From NCBI RefSeq assembly GCF_022869805.1, contig NZ_CP094974.1:3162001-3226000 (forward strand): DNA of 64,000 nt, in the 5' to 3' direction. A program made the position numbers and the translations under genes. This DNA is from Halosolutus halophilus. GTDB taxonomy: Archaea > Halobacteriota > Halobacteria > Halobacteriales > Natrialbaceae. Positions 11,845 through 33,225 of this stretch are shown one piece after another. Numbering within the stretch: the first letter of the stretch is position 1; each line of letters opens with the position of its first letter. The notes under the pieces were generated by a model. It was given only the letters and a program-made list of their open reading frames with translations, made no database searches and was not told the origin of the DNA.

Positions 11845-11868
11845 ATCGCGCAAGCACCATCACAACGC

Positions 11869-12056
11869 TTTTATCCCATTCGAGACTACGCGTATCCACG
11901 ATGGTAGGTGTCCGCTTTACAGGGGCTTTCGCCCGCTTCTAATCTCCACCTACCGCCGGCCGTGTCGGAACCGACCCACGGCCGAGCGGGACGCGCGGAC
12001 CACCCACCGAACTTCTCACCGAAGTTCCCAGATCAGCGACAGCCACAGTAACAGCC
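11869..12056 (+). promoter_or_regulatory. thrS promoter and structured leader
   Basis: A TTTTAT box (11869-11874) lies 27-32 nt before an ATG at 11901, so transcription should start at or very near that codon, about 155 nt ahead of thrS. The leader then holds three perfect inverted repeats. GGTAGGTG (11903-11910) pairs with CACCTACC (11947-11954), with GGGC/GCCC nested at 11923-11934. CGGCCGTG (11957-11964) pairs with CACGGCCG (11977-11984). GAACTTC (12009-12015) pairs with GAAGTTC (12021-12027). The first strand can instead pair downstream: GGTAGGTGTCCGC (11903-11915) with GCGGACCACCCACC (11995-12008), with one bulge and one mismatch. These mutually exclusive folds suggest a switching leader. 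No Shine-Dalgarno-like sequence precedes thrS. Confidence 0.6.
11901..11942 (+). CDS. 13-codon leader micro-ORF of thrS
   Basis: ATG at 11901 opens MVGVRFTGAFARF and stops with TAA at 11940-11942. The position of the TATA-like box makes this the expected first codon of the thrS mRNA, so it would be read as a leaderless ORF. It contains one Thr, encoded by ACA, and a TTT Phe, both uncommon codons in this GC-rich genome. The coding bases form the 5' strand of the first leader hairpin, so a translating ribosome would open it. The product may be irrelevant and translation itself the signal. The coding status is inferred from position and not from homology. Confidence 0.45.
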   Translation: MVGVRFTGAFARF

Positions 12057-14000
12057 ATGTCAGAATCAGAATCACAGGAGCAGATCGCGGTCGTACTGCC
12101 AGACGGATCCGAACTCGACGTCGACCCCGGCGCGGCGGTCGAGGACTGTGCCTACGAGATCGGGCCCGGCCTCGGGAGCGACACCGTCGCCGGCAAACTC
12201 GACGGCGACCTCGTCGCCAAGGAGGAACCGGTCTACGACGGGGCCGAACTCGAGATCGTCACCGATCAGTCGGACGAGTATCTCGACGTCATGCGCCACT
12301 CCGCGGCCCACTGTCTCGCCCAGGCCGTCGAGCGCCACTACGACGACGTCGATCTCGCGATCGGGCCGCCGACGGACGAGGGCTTCTACTACGACTTCGA
12401 CAACCTGGAAATCGACGAGGAGGACCTCGCGGACCTCGAAGACGAGATCGAGGAGATCATCGCGGCCGACTACGACATCGAGCGCGAGGCGGTCTCGATC
12501 GAGGAGGCCGAAGAGCGACTGGCCGACGAACCGTACAAACTCGAACTGCTCTCCGAGTTCGCCGACGAGAACGATACCGTTACGTTCTACAGCCAGGGCG
12601 AGTGGGAAGACCTCTGTGCCGGCCCGCACGTCGACTCGACGGGCGAGATCGGCGTCGTCGAACTGCTCGAGATCGCCGGCGCCTACTGGCGCGGCGACGA
12701 GGAAAATCCGATGCAGACGCGGATCTACGGCACCGCCTTCGAGGACGAGAGCGATCTGGAGGCGTTCCTGGAGCGCAAACGCGAGGCCGAGAAGCGCGAT
12801 CACCGCCGGATCGGCAACGAGATGGATCTGTTCTCCATTCAGGACGTGACGGGGCCGGGCCTGCCGCTCTATCACCCCGCCGGGAAGACCGTCCTCTCGG
12901 AACTCGAGGCGTTCGTCAGGGATCTGAACGAGGACGCGGGGTACGACTACGTCGAGACGCCCCACGTCTTCAAGACGGATCTCTGGCACCGATCGGGTCA
13001 CTACGAGAACTACCAGGACGACATGTTCATCTTCGACGTCGGCGACGACGAGTTCGGCCTGAAGCCGATGAACTGTCCCGGCCACGCCGCCATCTTCCAG
13101 GACCACTCCTGGAGCTACCGCGACCTCCCCGTTCGGTACGCCGAGAACGGCAAAGTCTACCGGAAAGAGCAGCGCGGCGAGTTGTCGGGCCTCTCCCGGG
13201 TCTGGGCGTTTACGATCGACGACGGCCACCTGTTCATCCGCCCCAACCAGATCGAGCGCGAGGTCGAGGAGATCATGGACATGATCACGGACGTCCTCGA
13301 GACGTTCGACCTCGAGTACGAGATGGCCCTCGCGACGCGCCCCGAGAAGAGCGTCGGCAGCGACGAGATCTGGGAGCGCGCGGAGTCCCAACTCGAGAGC
13401 GTCCTGGAGGACCACGGCCACGAGTACGAACTCGAGGAGGGCGACGGCGCGTTCTACGGGCCGAAGATCGACTTCGCGTTCGAGGACGCGATCGGGCGCT
13501 CGTGGGACGGCCCGACGGTGCAACTCGACTTCAACATGCCCGAGCGGTTCGACCTCTCCTACGTGGGCGAGGACAACGAGGAGCACCGCCCCGTCATGAT
13601 CCACCGCGCGCTGTACGGCAGCTACGAGCGGTTCTTCATGATGCTCATCGAGCACTACGAGGGACGGTTCCCGCTGTGGCTGGCTCCCGAACAGGTCCGC
13701 ATGCTGCCGATCTCCGACGACAACCTCGGCTACGCCCATCGGATCGCAAACGAGTTCGACGACTTCCGCGTCGAGGTCGACGATCGCGACTCGACGCTCG
13801 AGCGCAAGATCCGCGCGGCCCACGACGATCGGGTCCCCTACCAGATCATCGTCGGCGACGACGAGGAAGAAGCGGGGAACATCTCGGTCCGCGATCGCTT
13901 CGAGGACCAGGAGTACGACGTCGAAATCGAGGCGTTCCGCGATCATCTCGAGGCCGAACGGGACGAGCAGCGGACGGAACCGGACTTCCTGCAGGACTGA
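12057..14000 (+). CDS. thrS: Threonine--tRNA ligase
   Basis: A 647-residue class II synthetase that charges tRNA-Thr. It has the bacterial-type architecture: N-terminal TGS domain (residues about 8-70), SAD editing domain with [13 protein letters not shown] and [13 protein letters not shown], catalytic core, and C-terminal anticodon-binding domain (about 540-640). Motif 2 ([19 protein letters not shown]) and motif 3 ([17 protein letters not shown]) are intact, and the zinc-binding Cys is in MNCPGHAA. Length is normal. The ATG at 12057 follows a structured, probably regulatory leader with its own micro-ORF. Confidence 0.96.
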
Positions 14001-33033: not shown

Positions 33034-33225
33034 CGTAATCACCGCGGGCGTTTCCTGGTTCAATCCGAACGGGGCGAAGCCCCGCGGATCACATCCCGTC
33101 CTGTGGCGGCGTCGTGCCGAACAGGTGCCCGCTGGTGCCCGCGACCCAGCGAGTCTGCCCGAACGTACCCAGCGTTCGTGTATAAGCGCTTCGAACCGTC
33201 GAGGCGAAACCCGATCGGGTCCGCG

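Follow-up and report, generated by a model that had tools for sequence, protein, structure and literature searches.

Bacterial thrS genes, which encode threonyl-tRNA synthetase (ThrRS), are controlled by leader RNA mimicry or by T-boxes. In the translational operator of Escherichia coli thrS, ThrRS binds tRNA-like hairpins. That a stalled ribosome can control synthetase and amino-acid genes is textbook knowledge for bacteria; we know of no described archaeal case, and searches of the literature (open-licence papers) and of Rfam retrieved no archaeal leader-peptide attenuator. Upstream open reading frames (uORFs) are on record in haloarchaea: for Haloferax volcanii, Table 2 of a dRNA-seq study lists 16 uORFs in long 5'-UTRs with mapped transcript starts, including one of 26 aa before pheS and one of 23 aa before a trpS (Babski et al. 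2016, PMC4983044).

The thrS leader of Halosolutus halophilus

The window analysed here comprises 64,000 nt of Halosolutus halophilus (GCF_022869805.1, NZ_CP094974.1, positions 3,162,001-3,226,000 of the forward strand), a haloarchaeal genome related to those of Natrialba, Natrinema and Natronococcus, among others. It carries a thrS gene whose product we take to be a ThrRS of the bacterial type, with TGS and editing domains. The gene and the parts of its leader are as follows.

11868..11874, + strand: TATA-like element CTTTTAT, beginning 33 nt before the uORF ATG
11901..11942, + strand: micro-ORF MVGVRFTGAFARF*, predicted to be leaderless; in frame across 125 unique leaders
11903..11915, + strand: 5' arm GGTAGGTGTCCGC, predicted from sequence and folding to pair with arm A or arm B
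11916..11921, + strand: codon pair TTT ACA (Phe6-Thr7); invariant alignment columns
11923..11934, + strand: small hairpin P2 (GGGC/GCCC), within the uORF, 5' of the stop
11940..11942, + strand: uORF stop codon TAA
11947..11954, + strand: arm A CACCTACC, partner of the 5' arm immediately 3' of the stop; compensatory changes
11957..11984, + strand: hairpin P3, between arm A and arm B; identified by inspection
11995..12008, + strand: arm B GCGGACCACCCACC, candidate alternative partner of the 5' arm; matched variants and a fixed offset from TTYTC
12013..12017, + strand: TTCTC, a pyrimidine/T-rich, terminator-like stretch immediately 3' of arm B; resembles the signature in PMC7237163
12009..12027, + strand: hairpin P4, surrounding TTCTC; in only part of the family
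12057..14000, + strand: thrS, threonyl-tRNA synthetase

A sequence-only reading of this DNA had proposed a TATA-like box followed by a 13-codon ORF that opens at ATG 11901, and re-reading of the sequence found both, with the stop at TAA 11940-11942. The pairings it described are also present: GGTAGGTG at 11903-11910 is the perfect complement of 11947-11954, and the longer arm at 11903-11915 is complementary to 11995-12008, with interruptions. Its two further hairpins lie where it had placed them (11957-11984 and 12009-12027), but the second occurs in only a subset of the family, and the conserved element within it is the TTYTC stretch at 12013-12017 and not the hairpin.

None of 200 dinucleotide shuffles folds as well as the 156-nt leader (z -3.9). 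Arm B is paired in the minimum-energy fold, which is approximately 6 kcal/mol better than the fold in which arm A is forced. A scan of the leader against Rfam, including the T-box model, yielded no family at the gathering threshold. Elsewhere in the window, at 33052-33125 on the - strand, Rfam recognizes the eL15-Euryarchaeota ribosomal protein leader (RF03144, 41.4 bits).

Conservation and distribution of the upstream reading frame

The uORF has the consensus ATG NNN GGT GNY NRN TTT ACA…stop. From the ATG to TTT ACA the distance is 15 nt in 123 of 125 unique leaders, a count that includes two leaders (L152, L228) in which ACG replaces ATG and an in-frame ATG lies one codon upstream; in the others the distance differs by multiples of 3. 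All of the start shifts and insertions (L070, L093, L152, L228, L495) are in frame. In L093 and L495, both from the window's family, some 50 nt have been inserted in frame between the uORF start and TTT ACA, with a matching displacement of the promoter. The 5' arm of these two leaders no longer adjoins TTT ACA or is lost; that of L495 has stayed at the uORF start, distant from ACA. The Thr codon ACA is in frame in 125/125 leaders and is codon 7 in almost all of them, as a single codon and not as a run. Changes after TTT ACA are distributed over the three codon positions as 22/19/43, i.e. with a third-position excess. In 104 of the 125 leaders, 33-34 nt separate the start of the TATA-like element from the uORF ATG, as expected if the transcripts are leaderless. 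The conservation of start, frame and stop through insertions and deletions is comparative evidence that the uORF is translated. Within the invariant pair, the rare ACA accounts for 4.3% of the Thr codons in the ORFs of the window and TTT for 9.9% of the Phe codons, and one gene for tRNA-Thr(UGU) was found in the genome.

Between the uORF ATG and the thrS ATG the distance ranges from 72 to 369 nt. The thrS start shares the frame of the uORF in 99/125 leaders, and of 57 distinct lengths 37 are divisible by 3, a bias for which we have no explanation. A coding spacer or readthrough of the stop, suggested by this bias, was ruled out by the lack of codon periodicity in the spacer (69/69/75).

The uORF with in-frame TTT ACA was present in 30/30 of the first loci examined in relatives, and of the 96 genomes of the window's family, the Natrialbaceae, 92 match its pattern. 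The four misses comprise two genomes without this thrS (G030, G352) and the leaders L093 and L495, which keep longer uORFs of 30 and 31 codons with TTT ACA still in frame. Three genomes of the family (G014, G030, G352; 98-99% complete) yielded neither a close match to this ThrRS nor a leader; their ThrRS has probably been replaced by another one. Across the order, 127 of 392 genomes matched the pattern, as opposed to 1/392 for a control pattern read backwards. Carriers occur in several families besides that of the window, among them Halorubellus, Halovenus, Halosimplex and Haloferax mucosum, and wherever the DNA of a haloarchaeal match was retrieved, the gene immediately downstream is thrS. 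Bacteria and other archaea show scattered matches; the ones inspected in archaea outside the order fall within unrelated coding sequence.

The motif searches demand TTT ACA; its invariance is therefore best judged from a survey based on the ThrRS protein, in which the regions upstream of thrS were chosen without the motif. This survey divides the haloarchaea in two, those in which thrS itself is leaderless and those in which thrS has a uORF leader, and it found no uORF leader without in-frame TTT ACA. Leaderless thrS genes are the majority in several families (66 counted automatically, others by inspection). In a tree of ThrRS, the leader is found on either side of the deepest haloarchaeal split, and at least six gains or losses are needed. 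The f17/g54 genomes (L293, L294, L300) have two thrS genes, one leaderless and the other with a uORF leader (MLGDCFTRRVLAR*).

Pairing arms and a candidate attenuator

In 65 aligned sequences, 82% of the cells between the 5' arm and arm A are paired, compared with at most 49% when one arm is slid along the other. Double-changed cells number 36, compared with 15.6 in shuffles, and none of 500 shuffles reached the observed number. One pair position shows U-A, C-G and U-G. Arm A is largely rewritten together with its partner in L070, L308 and L318, and when arms are swapped between leaders the duplex energies favour each leader's own arm A; these energies were used because a fixed 10-nt window proved too strict. 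RNAalifold recovered only a trivial 6-pair fold from the alignment, probably owing to the misalignment of a minority of the arm A segments, and counts over the named structures were used instead. The conservation and covariation that the sequence-only reading had proposed to look for in relatives are thus found for the uORF, its frame and arm A, the last with compensatory changes. P2 (helix 3) is paired in 86% of cells, with changes on both sides at two pairs; at the position of P3 most of the inspected leaders have a hairpin of variable sequence.

Arm B occurs mainly in the window's family, and several lineages lack it. Of 54 leaders with GTCCGC, 47 contain the exact complement of the six bases that precede TTTACA, and matched variants are found as ACGGAC in 5/19 GTCCGT leaders and as GCAGAC in 8/14 GTCTGC leaders. 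Measured from TTYTC, pairing reaches 88% only at offset 12, while covariation was not above shuffles in a test within the family anchored on TTYTC. Of the two mutually exclusive folds proposed from the sequence, the one with arm A is accordingly borne out by covariation, whereas the covariation of arm B is weak. TTYTC, a weak T stretch, follows the arms closely: among 65 leaders with arm B, 42 have it at the end of that arm, 11-12 nt beyond the hexamer, and among 60 leaders without arm B, 39 have it at most 12 nt beyond arm A. TTYTC resembles the intergenic terminators of Haloferax, in which a T stretch is combined with a conserved TC and, in some cases, immediately preceded by a hairpin (PMC7237163).

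GGTGNC...TTTACA is nearly invariant and keeps its distance to the TATA-like element, much as an operator would, and the block from +1 to +21 could be a DNA site for a regulator of thrS transcription that overlaps the transcription start by chance. We consider this the least probable of the alternatives, because arm A, which is located 3' of the stop, co-varies with the block, no matches were seen in haloarchaea other than at thrS, the block is split by the in-frame insertion in L495 and the motif is not palindromic.

The RNA itself might also be the sensor, with the leader binding uncharged tRNA-Thr(UGU) in a T-box-like manner, or ThrRS as in E. coli thrS, and the uORF being incidental. TTTACA is invariant base by base, it is unpaired between two stems in the arm A fold, and the anticodon loop of tRNA-Thr(UGU), CUUGUAA, is complementary to UUACA. 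Such binding is nonetheless very unlikely. The leader has no Rfam match, the ATG and stop stay in frame despite shifts and in-frame insertions, neither a conserved anticodon-like loop nor a bulge for binding the tRNA acceptor was seen, and the clusters of cognate codons at pheS and the second trpS described below point to translation. In leaders inspected by eye against tRNA-Thr with the anticodons GGU, CGU and UGU, no conserved NGU loop mimicking the anticodon arm was observed, and mimicry of the tRNA anticodon was dropped as a candidate. Binding of ThrRS, one of two branches suggested by the sequence-only reading, hence found no support. The other branch, control through the position of the ribosome on the rare ACA, is favoured by three observations: TTT ACA is invariant and in frame, promoter and ATG keep a fixed spacing, and pheS and the second trpS have cognate-codon uORFs.

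In the model we prefer, to which we assign a probability of roughly 0.6, the thrS leader is a ribosome-mediated attenuator. Transcription would start at or beside ATG 11901, leaving the nascent RNA with a bare 5' end for the first ribosome to load on. The rare ACA at codon 7 would be decoded by tRNA-Thr(UGU). When charged Thr-tRNA runs short, the ribosome would wait with ACA in its A site and cover the whole 5' arm (transcript nt 3-15), such that neither arm A nor arm B could pair, no stem would form beside TTYTC and RNA polymerase would continue into thrS. If Thr-tRNA is plentiful, the ribosome would reach the stop codon and cover arm A. The 5' arm would then be free; its partner could be arm B in the window's family and, in other families, arm A once the ribosome has been released. 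The resulting stem, together with TTYTC, would end or discourage the transcript. Folding with the ribosome footprint masked agrees with this scheme. In Haloferax there is evidence for coupled transcription and translation (PMC8576121). Attenuation is favoured because of the haloarchaeal terminator signature, the predicted covering of the arms by the ribosome and the agreement of the constrained folding. Comparison of the leaders bears out the uORF and its frame, the invariance of TTT ACA, the pairing of arm A and the restriction to thrS, whereas the leaderless start, the stalling, the direction of the switch and termination at TTYTC are inferred.

Arguing against an attenuator is the single Thr codon, whereas classical leader peptides have runs. 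In addition, TTT varies no more than ACA does. Since TTC never appears, for which codon identity is not a sufficient reason, an extra constraint at the level of RNA or DNA is implied. The weak covariation of arm B, its absence from several lineages and the weakness of TTYTC as a T stretch also count against an attenuator. Nor can a ribosome at ACA mask the 5' arm in the same way in L495 and L093, where that arm is lost or no longer adjoins TTT ACA. Attenuation explains neither the invariant TTT nor the split arrangement of L495.

Alternatively, the uORF and the folds may act on the finished mRNA as a translational switch, in which stalling at ACA alters accessibility or stability and thereby mRNA decay or re-initiation at thrS. 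As a terminator TTYTC is weak, and the frame shared by thrS and the uORF in 99/125 leaders, across a non-coding spacer, could hint at a ribosome passing from one to the other. The length of that spacer varies widely, with 72-369 nt from ATG to ATG, Shine-Dalgarno-like motifs were seen by inspection 5' of thrS in only some lineages and such motifs are unused at the 5'-UTRs of Haloferax (PMC3986360), and the T-rich stretch keeps its adjoining pairing arm. We therefore regard a translational switch as unlikely.

Other synthetase leaders and comparison with known systems

If thrS is regulated by attenuation, other synthetase genes may have such leaders, and we count those of pheS and a second trpS as independent support. 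Upstream of pheS, a uORF with clustered Phe codons is present in 22 of 30 genomes from six or more families of the Halobacteriales (loci L395-L422, with L404 an extra case from a looser scan). The cluster lies near the end of the uORF (…GFGFFFAR*; MAPEPHVRAGVARTPQRTRPGFGFFFAR* in the genome of the window, L410), and a TATA-like element is located 20-36 nt upstream. From its sequence, this leader looks like an archaeal pheL. Upstream of the second trpS, a uORF with two or three closely spaced Trp codons (…WRWRW…; for example MTPALEWRWRWQ…) occurs in 7/10 genomes (L463, the genome of the window, and L464, L466, L468, L470-L472). It is flanked by the complementary arms CCGCTCTCGAG and CTCGAGAGCGG, with TTTTC or TTCTC downstream. 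A crude scan of tyrS, ileS and leuS/valS-like genes detected no cognate-codon uORF. At what we judge to be even odds, haloarchaea possess a set of leader-peptide attenuators on thrS, pheS and the second trpS, built from leaderless uORFs with cognate codons, which would be the first amino-acid-specific ribosome-mediated attenuation in Archaea. If this is true, tRNA charging in Archaea would have a natural readout that is open to genetic tests, and attenuation may have arisen independently or be older than thought.

The uORFs in Table 2 of the Haloferax volcanii study are likewise haloarchaeal and located upstream of synthetase genes; as that table presents them they are only small proteins, with no regulatory role, no thrS case and no remark on cognate codons (PMC4983044). 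The eL15-Euryarchaeota leader (RF03144) resembles that of thrS as a structured archaeal 5' leader acting in cis, but it precedes a ribosomal-protein gene, lacks a uORF and is unrelated in sequence. With the E. coli thrS operator the archaeal leader has in common the gene and the proposed control by leader RNA; it differs in that a reading frame and a pairing arm are conserved and no anticodon-like hairpin was seen. It shares with the T-box leaders of Gram-positive thrS genes a cognate codon in a structured leader and, as predicted, a terminator-like choice at its end, whereas it has no T-box match and its conserved start, frame and stop point to translation. By analogy, the thrS leader appears to work like the known bacterial mechanism, with new features. 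As in trpL, thrL and pheL of E. coli, a short uORF with cognate codons is followed by stems, here predicted to be mutually exclusive, one of them beside a T-rich stretch. In contrast to these, the thrS leader is archaeal and predicted to be leaderless, has a single rare Thr codon and a weak T stretch, serves a synthetase gene of bacterial type and carries its pairing arm within the uORF, at the extreme 5' end of the transcript.
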